A stretch of 64,000 bases of DNA. It comes from Tenacibaculum todarodis. Its GTDB lineage: Bacteria; Bacteroidota; Bacteroidia; Flavobacteriales; Flavobacteriaceae. Numbering within the stretch: position 1 is the first letter of the stretch; each line of letters begins with the position of its first letter. Shown here piece after piece: positions 37,843 through 44,547 of this stretch. Position numbers and translations under genes: made by a program. The DNA is taken from NCBI RefSeq assembly GCF_001889045.1, contig NZ_CP018155.1, forward strand, positions 1,049,001 to 1,113,000, given 5' to 3'. Below the pieces are notes generated by a model that was not told the origin of the DNA, searched no databases, and saw only the letters and a program-made list of their open reading frames with translations.

Positions 37843-38304
37843 TTAAGACATTTTTTTTGCAGCAATTGCTACTGCTTTTTCTATTCTATTATACGAAGCA
37901 CATCTACACAAATTACCGTGCATTGCTTGTCTTATTTCTTCTTGTGAAGGTGATGGATTGTCTTTAAGAAACGAAGCCGCAGTCATAATTTGCCCTGCTT
38001 GACAATAACCACATTGTGGCACATCTACTTCTTTCCAAGCTTCTTGTAATGGATGATCTCCTTCTTTAGACAAACCTTCAATTGTTGTGATTTCTTCTGA
38101 ATCTAATTCAGAAACTTTTAGCTGACAACTTCGCATTGCTATTCCATTTAAGTGAATGGTACAAGCTCCGCATTGTGCAATACCACAACCAAATTTTGTT
38201 CCTACTAAATTTAACTCGTCTCTTAAAACCCATAATAAAGGTGTGTCTTCATCCGCAGAAAAAGACTTGAGTTCTCCGTTTATTTTTAAAGTGTAGTTTG
38301 GCAT
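37843..38304 (-). CDS. 2Fe-2S subunit of molybdenum hydroxylase (IorA type)
   Basis: The 153-residue protein carries two 2Fe-2S clusters that carry electrons from the molybdenum subunit. The N-terminal ferredoxin-like cluster is bound by CGIAQCGACTIHLNG and the downstream Cys of MRSC. The C-terminal helical cluster uses CGYCQAGQ and NLCRCASY. It starts at ATG 38304 and is followed by the large subunit gene. It has no Tat leader of its own, so it is probably exported together with its partner. Small-subunit identity is certain from the cysteine pattern. Confidence 0.95.
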   Translation of the reverse strand: MPNYTLKINGELKSFSADEDTPLLWVLRDELNLVGTKFGCGIAQCGACTIHLNGIAMRSCQLKVSELDSEEITTIEGLSKEGDHPLQEAWKEVDVPQCGYCQAGQIMTAASFLKDNPSPSQEEIRQAMHGNLCRCASYNRIEKAVAIAAKKMS

Positions 38305-38379
38305 TTTAAGTAGTTTTTAATTTATTGGTAAAAGTTACGAAAAAATTGAATATTAATCCTTTAATTATTTCTTAAAATA

Positions 38380-38408
38380 AAAAAGTGAAGCTTTCGCTTC
38401 ACTTTTTA
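38380..38408 (-). terminator. Terminator after 66-aa gene
   Basis: Ten-bp stem aaagtgaagc/gcttcacttt with a 4-nt loop, flanked by A and T runs. Confidence 0.8.
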
Positions 38409-38412
38409 TTAA

Positions 38413-38613
38413 TTATTTTTTGTTTACAAATAAACCAATCAAGAGCGTTACTATACCTGCACCTAGAGTAATATATGCACTGTTGTTATCTTGTGCTTCA
38501 AATTCTGCTATACCAATATCTAAAGATGCTTCTGGTACAATTATTTCGTATGCTCCGTAAGCTACTAATAGAATTCCTACTACAATTAAAATTGTTTTTA
38601 TTGTTTTGTTCAT
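38413..38613 (-). CDS. Small two-helix membrane protein
   Basis: The 66-residue product has two predicted membrane helices (about 6-24 and 46-62) joined by an acidic, presumably periplasmic, loop. The layout resembles small DUF3185-type proteins, but I do not assign the family firmly. It follows the beta-barrel gene by 30 bp and ends at a strong terminator, so both probably share the regulated promoter at 39147-39206. Function unknown; a role in envelope stress is only suggested by the neighbours. Confidence 0.75.
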   Translation of the reverse strand: MNKTIKTILIVVGILLVAYGAYEIIVPEASLDIGIAEFEAQDNNSAYITLGAGIVTLLIGLFVNKK

Positions 38614-38643
38614 AATTATATTGTTTAAAAGTTAATTAATTTT

Positions 38644-39117
38644 TTAGAATTGGTATCTAATACCTAAAGCTATATCAAAATCTAAATCGTCGCTATAACT
38701 ATCGTTAAAACCTAACTCTGGTCTAATATCTAGAGACATTAATAAAGGAATATCAAAATTATATTCGATACCTAGATTAGCTGCTGCTAAAAAAAATGTT
38801 CCATCATTTCCTGGAGTACTAAAAGAACCCAAACCTGCACCAGCACCAACGTACCAGTTAAAACCGTCTTCTCCTAAAGGATTCACCCATTGGTATAGAC
38901 CTACTAACTTAAAGGCATCTACATTGTTTGAGTTTCTAAAACCTAAATCAAATTCTAAACGGTTATTATCATCTAAATATCTTTGATAAGAGATTTCTCC
39001 ACCAAATCCATCATTGTCTCCAACTCTTAAACCTAAAGCGTTTTTAGAGATATCTTGTGCTGACATTGCTCCTGTTATTAAAAATAAAATTGCAATTAAA
39101 ATGTTTGTGTTTTTCAT
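38644..39117 (-). CDS. Small outer-membrane beta-barrel protein
   Basis: The 157-residue protein has a signal peptide (to GAMSAQD) and alternating amphipathic strands typical of an eight-strand porin-like barrel, ending in the aromatic C-terminal residue of GIRYQF, the usual barrel-assembly signal. About 135 mature residues is the minimum size for such barrels. It is divergent from the AraC-family regulator gene, and its promoter carries the half-site pair described at 39147-39206, so it is probably controlled by that regulator. Ligand and function unknown. Confidence 0.85.
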   Translation of the reverse strand: MKNTNILIAILFLITGAMSAQDISKNALGLRVGDNDGFGGEISYQRYLDDNNRLEFDLGFRNSNNVDAFKLVGLYQWVNPLGEDGFNWYVGAGAGLGSFSTPGNDGTFFLAAANLGIEYNFDIPLLMSLDIRPELGFNDSYSDDLDFDIALGIRYQF

Positions 39118-39146
39118 GTTATATATTTTTTAAATTGATTACAATG

Positions 39147-39206
39147 TAAAATTACTGCAACTACTAAGTTTTTATTTGCTCTATAGAAATGATTATTAAC
39201 TCATTT
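39147..39206 (-). promoter_or_regulatory. Candidate AraC-type promoter/operator of beta-barrel gene
   Basis: On the minus strand: half-site AAATGAGTTAA (39206-39196), half-site TATAGAGCAAA (39185-39175, 21 bp on), then -7 box TAATTTTA starting at 39154, 31 bp after the second half-site start. Three other promoters nearby have the same spacing. Confidence 0.7.
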
Positions 39207-39243
39207 AAAAACTATATCTTTATTTTTTTGTAGAACTCATTAT

Positions 39244-40281
39244 ATGATAACAATTAATATTACTGCCAAAAGTACTGAAGGTACGGTTAAGCAAATTCAA
39301 GAAATTATTGGTGGTACAATTATAGAACGTTGGGGCGAATATATTTTGAGTGTAAATAACAATATTGCTACTGGTAAAATTACTTTTATTACGTTTGAAT
39401 GGGGAGGAAGTGTTTTAGAATATGATATAACTTTCTTAGAAGATATAACTTTGGTTATGGATACTTCTGAATTTAACCCAATTCATTTTACCTATTTAAC
39501 TGAAGGACATTGTTTTCATAGATTTGAATTAGAAAATAAAAAAAGGAAATTAACTCAATTTCAATCTGTAATAATTACAAGTAAAGATGGTGGTTATAAT
39601 TATGGATATTTTGAAAAGAATGTTAAGTTGAACATTCATGTTATTCAAATTAGTAGATTAAAATTTATTAGGAAACGTTTAAATGATGCTTCTCAATTAA
39701 ATAAACGTTTGTATGAAGTTTTTTACGATCAACAACACGAAAATGTTTTCGCTTATTTTGGAACGTATAATTTAAAGTTAGCAAACCTTATTAAAAGATA
39801 TAATAAGGTAAAACAAAAAGGAATGATTAAAATTTTGATAAAAGAAGGTATTATTTATCAAATTTTATCAGAACATATTTTACAACATAATAAAGATGTA
39901 AAAACAAATAAGCAACCTAACACTTCGCTAAGTAAAAAAGAATTAAATAGTGTTAGAAAAATAGCACAAAAAATTTCTAACAATGTAGCTGAAGATTATA
40001 ATGTGGAAGAATTGGCAATTACTCTTGGTTTACCACAAGCAAAATTACAGGAAGGTTTTAAAATATTATTTTCTAGAACAGTAATTGAATACATAAGGCA
40101 TGTAAGGCTAGAAGAAGCTCGTGACTTAATTAATAATACGGATTATAACATCTCTCAAATAGTCTATTCTATTGGCTTTAGTAGCAGAAGTTACTTTTCA
40201 AAAATATTTAAAAAGAAATATGGAATTAGCCCAAGTAAGTTTTTAAAAAACAAGCAAAACGTAACAATTAAAGCTTCTTAA
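39244..40281 (+). CDS. AraC-family transcriptional regulator
   Basis: The 345-residue protein has a C-terminal AraC-type double helix-turn-helix (about 245-335), with the second helix region reading YNISQIVYSIGFSSRSYFSKIFKKKYGISPSKF, here named by its family motif GFSSRSYFSKIFKK. The N-terminal 240 residues do not match a cupin sensor I recognise, and there is no signal peptide or membrane segment, so it is a cytoplasmic regulator with an unknown signal. It is divergent from the beta-barrel gene. Four nearby promoters share half-sites spaced 21 bp, the classic spacing for AraC dimers, making them its likely targets. That link is inferred. Confidence 0.92.
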   Translation: MITINITAKSTEGTVKQIQEIIGGTIIERWGEYILSVNNNIATGKITFITFEWGGSVLEYDITFLEDITLVMDTSEFNPIHFTYLTEGHCFHRFELENKKRKLTQFQSVIITSKDGGYNYGYFEKNVKLNIHVIQISRLKFIRKRLNDASQLNKRLYEVFYDQQHENVFAYFGTYNLKLANLIKRYNKVKQKGMIKILIKEGIIYQILSEHILQHNKDVKTNKQPNTSLSKKELNSVRKIAQKISNNVAEDYNVEELAITLGLPQAKLQEGFKILFSRTVIEYIRHVRLEEARDLINNTDYNISQIVYSIGFSSRSYFSKIFKKKYGISPSKFLKNKQNVTIKAS

Positions 40282-40283
40282 CC

Positions 40284-40916
40284 TTAATTTGATACTATTT
40301 TTTGAATATTAAATTTAGTTCTATAGGGTTTTGAAATTAAATATTTAATTTCCTCTAAACTTGTTTTTTTATTCAACCATTTATTTTTAAAAATACCTGG
40401 TATTTGTAATGGCATTACATCATATATATTATTTATTGAGTTTAATTTCTTATTTGCGTCTGTGTTAATTATAGAACATGTTGTAAAACCATCTTCCGTA
40501 GTGTTGTATATACCTGCCAAATAAAAAGGTTCTCTATTCTTTTTTTCAACTAAATAATTTTGTACTGTATTTGTCTCTAATTTGTGAGCATAAAAGCCGG
40601 TTGCTAAAACTAAACACCTTCTATTTTTTAAAGATTTTGTAAATAATACATTGTTAAATATATCTTCAACTCTTGTGTGTAGTGTTCTTTTTAGTTTTTG
40701 AAAATTTTTCCAGCTACCTTCAAAATTTTGAGGTAAAATACCCCAAATCCCATAGTTAATCTCAATTGGATTATCCATAGTAATAATAGAAACATTTTGC
40801 TCTTTTAATCCATCAATTTTTAATTTAGGTTTATAAAGATATGGATGCTTAAATTTTATTTTAGCAAAATCCTCTATAGTAGTTCTACTTGCTATGTTAG
40901 ATAATTTATAATTCAT
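40284..40916 (-). CDS. SRAP (YedK/HMCES) family protein lacking catalytic residues
   Basis: SRAP proteins cross-link to abasic sites in single-stranded DNA through Cys2. This 210-residue protein keeps the fold markers WGILP, RRCLVLATGFY, FYLAGIYN and the FTTCSIINT strand. The start MNY puts Asn where the obligatory Cys2 should be; no upstream start restores it. By motif alignment the active-site Asn is His (LHTR), the Glu after GFY is Ala, and the His before MP is Asn. It should therefore be unable to form the usual thiazolidine cross-link, but may still bind DNA. The promoter shares the AraC-type half-sites. Its 3' end faces the regulator gene, 2 bp away. Confidence 0.85.
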   Translation of the reverse strand: MNYKLSNIASRTTIEDFAKIKFKHPYLYKPKLKIDGLKEQNVSIITMDNPIEINYGIWGILPQNFEGSWKNFQKLKRTLHTRVEDIFNNVLFTKSLKNRRCLVLATGFYAHKLETNTVQNYLVEKKNREPFYLAGIYNTTEDGFTTCSIINTDANKKLNSINNIYDVMPLQIPGIFKNKWLNKKTSLEEIKYLISKPYRTKFNIQKIVSN

Positions 40917-40936
40917 TTTCTTCTATTTATTAAGAA

Positions 40937-40996
40937 CAAAAATAATTTTACTACACTCTTTTTTTTAACGCATATCAATATAAAATTTGCTCATTT
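40937..40996 (-). promoter_or_regulatory. Candidate AraC-type promoter/operator of SRAP gene
   Basis: On the minus strand: AAATGAGCAAA (40996-40986), ATATGCGTTAA (40975-40965, 21 bp on), then a perfect TATTTTTG -7 box starting at 40944, 31 bp after the second half-site start. Confidence 0.72.
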
Positions 40997-41014
40997 AAAA
41001 AAAACGCCTTTAGC

Positions 41015-41074
41015 AGATGAGTTAATAATTAACGTATTAGAGCAAAACAACAGTATTCTTTCAACATAACTTTG
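41015..41074 (+). promoter_or_regulatory. Candidate AraC-type promoter/operator of DUF1328 gene
   Basis: Half-sites AGATGAGTTAA (41015-41025) and ATTAGAGCAAA (41036-41046), 21 bp apart, then TAACTTTG at 41067-41074, again 31 bp after the second half-site start. Divergent from the SRAP promoter. Confidence 0.72.
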
Positions 41075-41125
41075 CTGTGTGCAAAAACTGTACACACAAT
41101 TAATATTAACCTTAAAACTTATATT

Positions 41126-41287
41126 ATGTTACGTTGGTCAATCACATTTATTATTATAGCAATTGTTGCAGGAATTTTAGGATTCTCGGGAATTGCAGGA
41201 ACAGCAACAGGAATTGCAAAGATTCTATTTTTCATCTTTATTGTATTATTTATAATATCATTATTAAGAGGAAAAAAAGCAATTTAA
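41126..41287 (+). CDS. DUF1328 (YtjA-like) small membrane protein
   Basis: The 53-residue protein starts at ATG 41126 (MLRWSITF), the standard family start; the longer in-frame extension upstream overlaps the promoter and is rejected. Two membrane helices with small-residue patches ([18 protein letters not shown]) define the DUF1328 family, found widely and often induced by stress, with no known biochemical function. A strong terminator follows at once, so it is monocistronic, driven by the half-site promoter at 41015-41074. Confidence 0.9.
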
Positions 41288-41310
41288 ATTATAGATTTCA
41301 AAATATTATT

Positions 41311-41345
41311 AAGAAGAATGATTTTTAATCATTCTTCTTTTGTTT
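41311..41345 (+). terminator. Terminator after DUF1328 gene
   Basis: Thirteen-bp perfect stem aagaagaatgatt/aatcattcttctt with a 3-nt loop followed by T residues. Confidence 0.85.
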
Positions 41346-41394
41346 TTATTGAACATAATTTAACATAAACACCTTGAAAAGTTAATTTTTTACG

Positions 41395-41454
41395 AAATGA
41401 GCAAAGAACGAATTCAAATGAGCAAATGTAGACTCTATCTACTCCATACATTTG
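41395..41454 (+). promoter_or_regulatory. Candidate AraC-type promoter/operator of secreted-protein gene
   Basis: Two identical half-sites AAATGAGCAAA (41395-41405 and 41416-41426), 21 bp apart, followed by TACATTTG at 41447-41454. The second half-site overlaps the place where a -33 TTTG would be, and no TTTG is there, as expected for an activator-dependent promoter. Confidence 0.75.
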
Positions 41455-41543
41455 TAGTGTAGTTGTTTAACAACCAACTTAAAAGATGTAAAGTAGTAAG
41501 CATCAAAAAAATAAATTACTTAAAAATTAAAAACATATATATT

Positions 41544-42032
41544 ATGAAAAATTTCATTTTAACCTTAACATTATTATCAACCGGAATTTTATTTGCACAA
41601 GAAAATGTAGTGCAAGTAGATTTAATAGAAAAAACAAAAAATGTAACTCTTGTGGCTATCGAAGATGGAAAATCTGTTGAAAAAGATGTAAAAATAATTA
41701 CATTAAAAGAAACAGAAGTAAGACTTAATCCAAATCAAAAACACATGTTAAATCAACAAAGAATTGAAACACCAATTAGTGTTACTAAAATTGTTATGAT
41801 TAACGAAGATGAAGATGCTTATTATGACAGAGCCGTAAAAGTAAGTTATTCTTTACCTGCAGGAACAGCTTTAGCAAAAGACTCTACTATTAATTTAACC
41901 AAAATAATCCACAGTTCAGATACTGATGAATCAGAAGATAAAAATTATACCGGTTCTGGATATTTTAATCAAGAAGGAGAATTTATCGCTTCTTATTATG
42001 ATGATTATAAATTGAATTTAGAAGCATTTTAA
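41544..42032 (+). CDS. Secreted protein of unknown function
   Basis: The start is ATG 41544, which gives a clean signal peptide (MKNFILTLTLLSTGILFAQ); the in-frame extension upstream would bury it. The mature part (about 143 residues) is acidic and Lys-rich with no recognised domain; it contains KDVKIITLKETEV and a central KIVMINEDEDAYYDR segment. About 90 bp of leader separates it from the half-site promoter. A terminator follows, then dps. It probably acts in the periplasm or outer membrane. Function unknown. Confidence 0.8.
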   Translation: MKNFILTLTLLSTGILFAQENVVQVDLIEKTKNVTLVAIEDGKSVEKDVKIITLKETEVRLNPNQKHMLNQQRIETPISVTKIVMINEDEDAYYDRAVKVSYSLPAGTALAKDSTINLTKIIHSSDTDESEDKNYTGSGYFNQEGEFIASYYDDYKLNLEAF

Positions 42033-42054
42033 TAATTTAAATACTACATATCCT

Positions 42055-42082
42055 AAAGGATGGTTTCTTACCATCCTTTTTT
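42055..42082 (+). terminator. Terminator between secreted-protein gene and dps
   Basis: Ten-bp stem aaaggatggt/accatccttt followed by T residues; some read-through into dps is possible because dps has no clear promoter of its own. Confidence 0.8.
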
Positions 42083-42109
42083 ATAAAAGCTAACTTAAAG
42101 TTAAAAACA

Positions 42110-42613
42110 ATGAATTACTTAAACATACAAACAGAAAAAATATTACCTGTAGCTAAGGAATTAAATCAATTATTAGCAGATTATCACATTTACTATCAGA
42201 AATTGAGAAACTTCCATTGGAATATCACAGGGAAAAACTTCTTTGAATTACATGAAAAATTTGAAGAAATGTACATAGATGCAAGAGCCAAAATAGATGA
42301 AATAGCTGAAAGAATAGTTACATTACAATATCATCCTATAAGTAGATATAGTAAGTATTTAAAAATTTCTTCAATATCAGAAGAAACACCTTTTAAAACA
42401 GATAGAGACATGGTTAATACATTATTGGAAGACCATAAAACATTATTAATTCAAATGAATAATGTCATAAAAAAAGCTGAAGATGCAAAAGATGAAGGAA
42501 CAATAGATATAATAGGCGGTTACATTGGTCAGTTAGAAAAAACTAGTTGGATGCTAAACGCATGGTCTAAAAATACTGTAGAACAATTTAAAAACGAAAT
42601 AATATTATCATAA
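42110..42613 (+). CDS. dps: Dps family DNA-binding ferritin
   Basis: Dps stores iron as a 12-subunit shell and protects DNA from hydroxyl radicals. The 167-residue length is normal. The inter-subunit ferroxidase ligands are all present with the right spacing: His36, His48, Asp63 and Glu67 (NFHWNITG, FELHEKFEEMY, KIDEIAERI). The N terminus lacks a lysine-rich tail, so DNA binding may be weak. It lies between a probable target of the AraC-type regulator and a MscS gene, 14 bp before the latter, which supports a stress-response setting. Confidence 0.95.
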   Translation: MNYLNIQTEKILPVAKELNQLLADYHIYYQKLRNFHWNITGKNFFELHEKFEEMYIDARAKIDEIAERIVTLQYHPISRYSKYLKISSISEETPFKTDRDMVNTLLEDHKTLLIQMNNVIKKAEDAKDEGTIDIIGGYIGQLEKTSWMLNAWSKNTVEQFKNEIILS

Positions 42614-42627
42614 AAACAGAAAAAATA

Positions 42628-43494
42628 ATGCAAGCAGAAAAAGCAATAAACAAAGCAACAAATACAATAGACAACTGGTGGAACTCTTTATTAAGTAACC
42701 TTCCTAATATTATTGTAGCCATATTAGTTTTAACAATATCTTTTTTTATATCTCAAAAAGTGAGTATACTAATTGAAAAAATTGTTTCAAAAAAAGTAAA
42801 AAAGAAAGCCGTTAGTGGTGTTATTAGTAAAATTATTTCTGTAATAATAATATTGGCTGGTTTATTTATTGCATTAAATATTTTAAATTTAGACGAAGCA
42901 CTTACCTCTTTATTAACTACAGCGGGTATTGCTGGTGCAGTTATTGGTTTATCTTTACAAGGAACATTATCTAATACTATTTCTGGTATTGTTTTATCTT
43001 TTAGAGAACGTATTAAAATTGGAAACTGGGTAGAAACTAATGGATTTTCCGGTGAAGTTATAGATATAAATTTAAAAGAGTTTGTATTAAAAGAAGCCGA
43101 TAATAACATTGTAATTATCCCCAATAAAGATGTTTTAGAAAGCCCTTTAAAAAACTATTCTCTTACGACAAGAATGCGAGTAAGGTTAGAATGTGGTGTT
43201 GGTTACGAATCTGATTTAGATAAAGTTGAAGCATTAACAAAAGAAACTATTGCTAAAGCCTTTGACCAGGTTTTAAGCAATGAAAACGTAGAATTTTATT
43301 ATACCGAATTTGGTGGTAGTTCTATAAATTTTTTATGTAGATTTTGGATTGATGCAGAAAACTCATTAGAAAAATTGATAGCTAAAAACAATGCAATAAA
43401 AGAAATTAAAAAAGCTTTTGATAAAGCAGGAATCAATATTCCATTTCCTATTAGAACACTTCAATTTGATAATACATTGGATGTTTCTAAATAA
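42628..43494 (+). CDS. Small-conductance mechanosensitive channel, MscS family
   Basis: MscS channels open under membrane tension and release solutes during osmotic downshock. The 288-residue protein is close to E. coli MscS size. It has three membrane helices in the first 125 residues; the pore-lining helix has the Gly/Ala pattern TTAGIAGAVIGLSLQGTL, then the beta domain with RIKIGNWVE and IPNKDVLESPLKN, and the alpha-beta C-terminal domain ending PFPIRTLQF. It follows dps by 14 bp and is probably co-transcribed. A bidirectional terminator follows. Confidence 0.95.
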   Translation: MQAEKAINKATNTIDNWWNSLLSNLPNIIVAILVLTISFFISQKVSILIEKIVSKKVKKKAVSGVISKIISVIIILAGLFIALNILNLDEALTSLLTTAGIAGAVIGLSLQGTLSNTISGIVLSFRERIKIGNWVETNGFSGEVIDINLKEFVLKEADNNIVIIPNKDVLESPLKNYSLTTRMRVRLECGVGYESDLDKVEALTKETIAKAFDQVLSNENVEFYYTEFGGSSINFLCRFWIDAENSLEKLIAKNNAIKEIKKAFDKAGINIPFPIRTLQFDNTLDVSK

Positions 43495-43518
43495 TACTAA
43501 AATTACAAAAATTGATAC

Positions 43519-43552
43519 TAAAAAAAGCACATTTTAAATGTGCTTTTTTTAT
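43519..43552. terminator. Bidirectional terminator between mscS and cysteine synthase-like gene
   Basis: Stem aaaaaagcacattt/aaatgtgctttttt between two converging genes; works on either strand. Confidence 0.85.
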
Positions 43553-44547
43553 TTCATAAATCCATTTTCACGCATCCAAGAATCCGAATATATTTTATCC
43601 ATATATCTTATTCCATGATCTGGAAGAATTACTACAACTACGCTATCTTTAGAAAACATTCCTTTTTCTGCGTATTGTTTGGTTGCTTGTATTACAGCAC
43701 CTGAGGTGTAACCACAAAGTAAACCTTCTTCTTGCACTAAGGCTCTAGATGATAAAGCAGCTTCTTTATCAGTTACTTTTTCATATACATCAATTACATC
43801 AAAATCTGTAGCAGACGGAATTAAGTTTTTACCTAAACCTTCAATCTTATAAGGTTTTATTTCATTTTCATCAAACTTGCAAGTTTCATGGTATTTCTTC
43901 AATACAGAACCAACAGCATCTACTCCTAATACTTTTATAGTAGAATTTTGTTCTTTTAAAAATTTACCAGTTCCTGAAATGGTTCCTCCTGTTCCACTTG
44001 CTACAACTACATGCGTTACTTTTCCGTTGGTTTGCTCCCAAATTTCTGGACCAGTAGATCTATAATGCGCTTCAATATTCAATTCATTAAAATATTGATT
44101 TATATAAATTGAATTTGGTGTTTCTCTATGAATTCTTTTTGCTGTTTCGTAATAAGAACGAGGGTCTTTTGCAGGTACATTGGCAGGACAAACATGTACG
44201 TTTGCTCCCATTGTTTTTAAAACGTCAATTTTATTTTGTGAAGATTTATCGCTTACTGCTAAAATACATTTATATCCTTTTACTAGAGCTATCATTGCAA
44301 TTGAGAAACCTGTATTTCCTGAAGTTGTTTCTACAATAGTATCGCCTGGTTTTAGAATTCCTTTCTTCTCAGCATTTTCAATAATATGTAATGCAATTCT
44401 ATCTTTTGCTGATTGACCAGGATTAAAAGATTCTAATTTTGCGTAAAAAACACCTTCTAAATCTGTAGTAACTCTATTTAATTTAACTAATGGTGTTTGA
44501 CCAATTAACTCTATAATATTATTGTAAACGTTTTGATTTCTAGTCAT
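43549..44547 (-). CDS. Cysteine synthase family PLP enzyme (cysteine or cysteate synthase)
   Basis: This fold-type II PLP enzyme catalyses beta-replacement on a serine derivative. The 332-residue protein has the cofactor lysine Lys48 in NPGQSAKDR, the substrate loop TTSGNTG (about 75-81) and the phosphate-binding loop GTGGTISG. The Ser-Ala before the lysine differs from the usual Ser-Val, and no serine acetyltransferase gene is adjacent, so the acceptor may not be sulfide. Since an AOS-family acyltransferase lies 9 kb away, cysteate synthase for sulfonolipids is an alternative. A TACTTTTG box and a terminator-like hairpin lie in the leader. Confidence 0.85.

Follow-up and report, generated by a model that had tools for sequence, protein, structure and literature searches.

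A predicted AraC-type activator of a stress-type gene set in Tenacibaculum todarodis and related Flavobacteriaceae

Genes and operator-promoters of the locus

The chromosome of Tenacibaculum todarodis contains a gene for a regulator of the AraC family that lies among promoters of one common architecture. We analyzed this locus within a stretch of 64,000 nucleotides (the window; G000:C1:1049001-1113000 of a single-contig genome of 3,019,213 bases), and all positions below are counted from the first letter of this window unless a contig is named. In each of these promoters, two direct half-sites with starts 21 bp apart are followed by a -7 box that begins 31 bp after the start of the second half-site. 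The best explanation for this arrangement, to which we assign a probability of about 0.86, is that the AraC protein encoded at 39244-40281 would be a class II-type activator of a small stress regulon that is conserved in the Flavobacteriaceae. An earlier interpretation of this DNA, made from the letters alone (the sequence-only reading), had claimed the geometry for four sites, and we could read it at every one of them.

39147..39206, minus strand: operator-promoter 1, half-sites AAATGAGTTAA and TATAGAGCAAA, -7 box TAATTTTA; before the outer-membrane beta-barrel gene
40937..40996, minus strand: operator-promoter 2, half-sites AAATGAGCAAA and ATATGCGTTAA, -7 box TATTTTTG; before the SRAP-like gene
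41015..41074, plus strand: operator-promoter 3, half-sites AGATGAGTTAA and ATTAGAGCAAA, -7 box TAACTTTG; before the DUF1328 gene
41395..41454, plus strand: operator-promoter 4, half-sites AAATGAGCAAA and AAATGAGCAAA, -7 box TACATTTG; before the secreted-protein gene

The first half-sites (in site order AAATGAGTTAA, AAATGAGCAAA, AGATGAGTTAA and AAATGAGCAAA) all fit the proposed pattern ARATGAGYWAA, and the second half-sites, which had been said to end mostly in GAGCAAA, do so in three of four cases with ATATGCGTTAA as the exception. The -7 boxes (TAATTTTA, TATTTTTG, TAACTTTG and TACATTTG) had been described as TAnnTTTG-like. Their position was right at all four sites, but the first box, TAATTTTA, ends in A instead of G. 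Matches to the full pattern at up to two mismatches in the window are exactly these four sites, against a chance expectation of 0.06 (100 dinucleotide shuffles). The search pattern was fitted to the four window sites and later widened by sites from relatives, and therefore the fair tests are those made at places outside these sites. Generic sigma-70 promoter matches were fewer than in shuffled DNA and uninformative, and no Rfam match at gathering score was found in 38300-43700.

The operator-promoters and the regulator gene are embedded in the following set of genes and terminator-like stems, in which lengths are given in amino acids (aa).

38380..38407, no strand assigned: terminator-like stem behind the 66-aa gene, where the beta-barrel unit ends
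38413..38613, minus strand: small membrane protein, 66 aa, with a 30-bp gap to the beta-barrel gene
38644..39117, minus strand: probable outer-membrane beta-barrel protein, 157 aa (label from the sequence-only reading and from the sequence by eye)
39244..40281, plus strand: AraC-family regulator, 345 aa (Pfam HTH_18, 5.9e-20), with close homologues in relatives
40284..40916, minus strand: SRAP-like protein (Pfam SRAP, 5.2e-26)
41126..41287, plus strand: DUF1328 small membrane protein, 53 aa (Pfam PF07043, 3.7e-16)
41311..41339, no strand assigned: terminator-like stem between the DUF1328 unit and operator 4, keeping the two apart
41544..42032, plus strand: probable secreted protein, 162 aa (signal-peptide-like start by eye; no Pfam match)
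42110..42613, plus strand: Dps (ferritin-like), 167 aa (Pfam Ferritin, 2.9e-27)
42628..43494, plus strand: MscS-type channel, 288 aa (Pfam MS_channel_2nd, 8.5e-17)

The beta-barrel protein has no Pfam match, and its NCBIfam match to an outer-membrane family is below threshold (E 0.044). Its gene is probably co-transcribed with that of the small membrane protein at 38413..38613. On the other side of the locus, no terminator-like site was found between the consecutive genes for the secreted protein, Dps and MscS, and operator-promoter 4 probably also serves dps and mscS. The catalytic residues of SRAP proteins (HMCES/YedK) are Cys2 and an Asn, a Glu and a His. The SRAP-like protein has no Cys2, and in an alignment with PDB 2f20 other residues stand in the places of the Asn, Glu and His, so that the label "inactive SRAP" given by the sequence-only reading fits. 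We consider the SRAP-like proteins to be a conserved and probably non-catalytic SRAP branch, although the alignment comprised the window copy only.

The operator in the genome, the genus and the family

The full motif combines the direct half-site pair at its 21-bp distance with a TAnnTTTR box, and it has exactly five exact matches in the 3.02 Mb of the own genome. These are the four window sites and a site at C1:1786327 (TATATTTG), in which both spacers and the -7 box are also exact. Between the end of this fifth site and the start of a gene for a 149-aa DUF2383 protein (Pfam, 4.1e-40) lie 64 bp, and hence the motif predicted a target that is absent from the list of the sequence-only reading. 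A genome search with the two-half-site pattern proposed in that reading, which does not include the -7 box, afforded four matches, namely three of the window sites and C1:1786327, and none with the reversed pattern. Weaker matches to the full motif amount to one at two mismatches and ten at three. The ten were set aside because the reversed control gives equally many (ten at up to three mismatches), and the match at two mismatches (C1:1195648) was dropped as a target, as it lies inside a coding open reading frame (ORF).

An even sample of 97 genomes from the genus contains 91 strict-motif sites, distributed over 34 genomes, and no site of the reversed pattern. Combined with the counts from the own genome and from the shuffles, this result led us to reject the idea that the four-site pattern arose by chance in AT-rich DNA, for which we found no evidence, and the probability left to it is negligible. 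A regulator homologue, for which the cut was set at E <=1e-20, is present in 37 of the 97 genomes. When the window genome is excluded, regulator and motif occur together in 31 of the remaining 96 genomes; 5 have the regulator alone, 2 have the motif alone, and 58 lack both (Fisher p 1.2e-17). At a regulator cut of E <1e-100 the same table reads 28/3/5/60.

A broader sample covered 299 genomes of the family from 236 genera. Apart from the window's own genome, eight of them contain a strict site and none the reversed pattern. Nine of the ten sites in this sample precede genes of the same families as before (DUF1328 three times, DUF2383, beta-barrel, LEA-like, SRAP-like, secreted protein and a Dps-like fragment). 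A regulator homologue at E 1e-40 is found in all eight strict-site genomes, compared with 87 of the 298 genomes other than the window's (p 4e-5). The group defined by E <1e-130 (29 genomes) includes seven of the eight (p 3e-7), and the group defined by E <1e-115 (30 genomes) includes all eight (p 4e-9), a cut that was chosen after the list had been seen. Among the 30 loci recovered by the regulator search of the family (29 from relatives and the window's), 23 have a site at up to three mismatches and none has a reversed site.

Loci were also collected by regulator alignment alone, independent of the motif. The best 80 of 480 confirmed stretches span Tenacibaculum, Polaribacter, Kordia, Aquimarina, Cellulophaga, Maribacter, Muricauda, Algibacter and other genera; some of these genomes are also in the genus set, and the two tests therefore overlap in part. 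At 68 of the 80 regulator loci we found a site at up to two mismatches, and the reversed pattern was found at one. The spacing proved to be fixed: on a grid of 21 x 19 spacer lengths, the combination 14/20 holds 98 sites at up to one mismatch, and any other cell holds at most four. The strict pattern with free spacers gave many 58-base (14/20) matches in the 97 genomes together with scattered lengths, and we rely on the grid instead of this listing because the reversed control was scattered as well. Near variants of the spacing occur in genomes G024 and G065 (13/20) and in G026 (14/21).

With identical sequences counted once, 203 distinct sites at up to one mismatch were available. They include loci that had been fetched by the motif and thus describe the site rather than test it. 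Their consensus is about TTAWWTGAGYHAA-N8-TTAWWTGAGYHAA-N20-TAnnTTTG-TA, and the half-site is well kept across the loci. TTAW columns, which lie outside the search pattern, recur before both half-sites at the shift of 21 bp, and this repetition argues that one protein reads both half-sites. The co-occurrence and the fixed spacing lend strong support to the suggestion of the sequence-only reading that the AraC gene would act on these promoters.

A number of observations weigh against this assignment. Twelve of the 80 regulator loci are without a site at up to two mismatches, and in the most distant third of the loci (<56% identity to the window protein) the half-site is less kept, with the third-base G at 67%. 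The co-occurrence statistics ignore shared ancestry. Five of the 36 regulator-bearing relatives contain no strict site (G008, G059, G083, G086 and G110), although the first three have sites at one or two mismatches, and six of the 37 regulator-bearing genomes are without DUF1328. G094 and G111 (the latter 59% complete) each contain one strict site and no homologue at E 1e-20, and the strict site of G272 overlaps the start of a 384-aa ORF instead of preceding a gene of the families named above. Finally, G028, G067 and G115 have sites but only distant homologues of the regulator (about 26-36% identity).

Since these last three genomes encode no close homologue, their sites must be served by a different member of the subfamily. 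The same could in principle hold for the window, where the motif would then be bound by a different protein, for example an AraC paralogue of the subfamily, and the gene at 39244 would merely be linked to the targets. Several Flavobacteriaceae indeed carry many homologues of this AraC, some of them close together, and in G028 a homologue with 27% identity lies between two sites. However, the window genome encodes a single homologue at E 1e-20 and yet contains five exact sites, and close regulators and sites co-occur across both genus and family. We consider binding by another protein to be improbable and favor the product of 39244-40281 as the protein that would bind these sites.

The regulator as a predicted class II-type activator

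The C-terminal part of the regulator (residues 257-335) contains the double helix-turn-helix (HTH) of the AraC/XylS family, with Pfam matches to HTH_18 (5.9e-20) and HTH_AraC (1.2e-10). A profile search against the PDB matched AraC, SoxS and others over this HTH part (query 221-337). Residues 1-230 gave no Pfam match and hence none to the arabinose-type AraC_binding (cupin) domain; this N-terminal part of about 230 aa probably senses the signal. Across the loci, the two recognition-helix regions (near LQEGFK and near SSRSYFSK) show almost no variation. Alignment A2 contained 55 of the 80 loci and the window (L243, with a stop in the translated stretch, was omitted). In the tree, the window protein belongs to a supported group with proteins from Tenacibaculum and one Polaribacter, and paralogues of 33-37% identity as well as those fused to a BLUF domain fall outside this group; long-branch joins in this tree are unsure.

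Bacteroidota promoters carry TTTG at -33, which is where the proximal half-site falls. In all five own-genome sites this half-site ends 20 bp before the TAnnTTTR box, and none of the five has TTTG at -33, as the sequence-only reading had claimed for the window sites and as is expected of activator-dependent promoters. We propose that the regulator would bind paired direct WTGAGYHAA half-sites, with starts 21 bp apart, via its two HTH motifs, and that it would occupy both half-sites, whether in the form of a dimer or with one double-HTH unit on each. The proximal half-site would take the place of the -33 TTTG, 20 bp before the TAnnTTTG -7 box, and from this position the regulator would recruit RNA polymerase with the housekeeping sigma factor in a class II-type activation. 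Stress would switch the gene set on. From the operator position we infer direct activation and not repression, and we likewise infer binding by this protein, operon read-through and stress as the cue.

Control in the opposite direction would require that the protein is a repressor, or that a ligand switches its sign, and that the regulon is derepressed under stress. The proximal site does overlap the -33 region, where a bound protein could block polymerase. Furthermore, a divergent operator in front of the regulator gene is present at 13 of 78 loci, window included (80 loci minus two without a readable regulator ORF). On the other hand, a repressor does not need a single fixed spacing, and two half-sites in fixed phase to the -7 box correspond to the layout of a class II activator as known for AraC. 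Together with the absence of TTTG at -33 in the five own-genome promoters, these points make a repressor very unlikely.

The activator model also has to be compared with an alternative sigma factor, whose promoter the repeats and the downstream box might represent. Such factors run stress gene sets in other phyla. In the present case, however, the downstream box is the standard housekeeping TAnnTTTG, and two copies of one element that face the same side of the helix at a distance of 21 bp suit a two-HTH protein rather than a sigma factor. The TTAW columns that recur at the same shift, and the presence of the motif, which tracks the AraC gene, also stand against this explanation, and we regard it as even less probable than repression.

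Activation by the AraC protein does not seem to extend to its own gene. No own-strand operator was found at up to two mismatches between -450 and +60 of the regulator start at any of the 78 loci, which places the regulator outside its own regulon. Auto-activation through this motif was therefore rejected.

The activator design itself is classic. At araI1-araI2 of araBAD in Escherichia coli, the direct half-sites of AraC are 21 bp apart and the proximal one abuts the core promoter. The protein described here is similar to E. coli AraC in that it contains a double HTH, has predicted direct half-sites at 21 bp with the proximal one at the core promoter, and is encoded beside its predicted targets. 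Unlike for E. coli AraC, no Pfam match to an arabinose-type N-terminal domain was found here, the predicted targets are of a stress type with one of them far off in the genome, and the promoter is a Bacteroidota TAnnTTTG promoter in which a half-site replaces the -33 element and the own-strand operator is missing (0/78 loci). The stress activators SoxS, MarA, Rob, RamA and GadX from enterobacteria share the AraC DNA-binding domain, as indicated by sub-threshold NCBIfam matches and by PDB matches. Of these, SoxS, MarA and RamA consist of one domain each and recognize a single asymmetric box, in contrast to the present regulator with its N-terminal part of about 230 aa and its two-site direct-repeat operator.

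Judging from close-set homologues in some genera, the AraC subfamily has expanded. At least three such homologues lie close together at G191:C48, G244:C1:1721899-1729230, G309:C3, G272:C1:158123-165000 and G261:C1:3186590-3190706. In paralogues of about 480-506 aa, a BLUF domain, which senses blue light, follows the AraC HTH (L069:1471-2910 in G009, L067:1405-2922 in G026 and L071:1477-2910 in G024, with Pfam BLUF matches at 1.7e-26, 7.6e-26 and 4.3e-24, respectively). The genes for these fusions are oriented towards another AraC gene. A literature search on such fusions in Bacteroidetes returned only unrelated papers.

Predicted target genes and known stress regulons

In the own genome the predicted regulon would consist of five units: the beta-barrel protein with the small membrane protein; the SRAP-like protein; DUF1328; the secreted protein with Dps and MscS; and the distant DUF2383 protein. 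In relatives YtxH, hemerythrin and LEA-like proteins would be added, as would CsbD and S30AE in single genomes. The predicted regulon has a fifth unit outside the window and is far wider than the window shows. The clustered families behind the 203 sites are DUF1328 (38), Dps (35), YtxH (28), DUF2383 (19), beta-barrel (15), secreted protein (13), SRAP-like (12), MscS (6), GH3 (5) and LEA-like (4), and rare ones include hemerythrin (2), CsbD (1) and an S30AE protein of the ribosome-hibernation type (1). Nine of the 203 sites have no ORF behind them by the rule of our script, and some of these cases are explained by, for example, an upstream start codon or an early end of the locus; two of the nine, in G095 and G103, precede a reading frame of 27 aa. 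Generic protection genes of the kind expected in a general stress regulon are represented by Dps, YtxH, DUF2383, hemerythrin, CsbD, S30AE, MscS and DUF1328; the other sites precede families without a name and a small number of further ones, GH3 among them. Those targets that can be named are for the most part protective in resting or stressed cells. At the 80 regulator loci, relatives of the beta-barrel protein are present in 32 cases and SRAP-like relatives in 47.

For dps and DUF1328 we inspected the upstream regions at the best 30 loci of each search, two of which in each set have no readable ORF. Regulator-bearing genomes account for 26 readable dps loci, and at 17 of these dps has an operator of its own at 0-2 mismatches. 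The other nine have none, and in eight of them, including the window, where the best motif upstream of dps has seven mismatches, dps comes after the secreted-protein gene, from which it is separated by 77 to 362 bp. In the ninth genome, G035, no upstream ORF of at least 100 aa was found. The sequence-only reading had suggested that dps and mscS might belong to the regulon, and this suggestion is supported by the dps operators of relatives and by the position of dps behind the secreted-protein gene without an intervening terminator. Orthologues of the window Dps are also encoded in genomes without the regulator. In two of these, G005 and G011, the best match upstream of dps has six mismatches, as in shuffled DNA. 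G107 also lacks the regulator and is uninformative because its dps starts 17 bp behind mscS, where an own promoter is unexpected. DUF1328 is found in 31 of the 97 genus genomes, all 31 of which also contain a regulator homologue. Upstream of DUF1328, the motif is present at up to one mismatch in 25 of 28 readable loci and at three mismatches in the other three.

The sigma B regulon of Bacillus, the RpoS regulon of Escherichia and the EcfG regulon of Alphaproteobacteria share the target types Dps, CsbD, YtxH, S30AE, MscS and DUF1328 with the gene set described here. Those regulons depend on alternative sigma factors, whereas an AraC-type activator is predicted here. We know of no established master regulator of the general stress response in Bacteroidota, and among the open-licence papers searched, as far as titles and the beginnings of abstracts tell, nothing describes this regulon or such a regulator. 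Since the name "general stress response" would draw on gene content only, we class the gene set as a new regulon of the AraC family. It is not placed with the sigma-driven stress regulons, as its sites keep the housekeeping -7 box and track an AraC gene. A broader proposal, to which we give slightly less than even odds, is that the Flavobacteriaceae may run a general stress response through one AraC-type activator and a 58-bp module instead of an alternative sigma factor. Its regulon (Dps, YtxH, DUF1328, DUF2383, MscS, hemerythrin, CsbD and a hibernation factor) would partly come and go with the regulator, and the subfamily would be radiating to other signals, including blue light in the case of the BLUF-fused paralogues.

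If the activator model is correct, it names a regulator together with its exact operator and a small number of targets, all of which could be tested in one strain of a family that is important in the sea. It would also give a function by association to several unnamed families, including those of the catalytically degenerate SRAP protein, the beta-barrel protein and the secreted protein. Moreover, it would show how an AraC activator is fitted onto a TAnnTTTG promoter, which would help to predict promoters and to build tools in Bacteroidota.

Three further observations concern individual loci. The dps upstream regions of L341 (G005) and L342 (G011) share, by eye, a TTGAC-spacer-TATATTA-like stretch, and dps in these two genomes may be under a different type of promoter. 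Locus L141 (G115) is a stress-gene cluster without an AraC gene, the distant homologues of this genome being encoded elsewhere. It has four strict sites (beta-barrel, LEA-like, DUF1328 and secreted protein) and also holds genes for SRAP-like, Dps, S30AE-like, MscS, patatin and PLD (cardiolipin-synthase-like) proteins. Finally, the strict sites at 568 (plus strand) in L155 (G095) and at 2663 (minus strand) in L182 (G103) are each followed by a 27-aa reading frame that is kept in both genomes (MIMRDLIKIILMNLRQLGRAAGYALRH in L155, by eye), with no longer gene on the same strand nearby. The product of these two sites is a candidate for a regulated microprotein or a small RNA.

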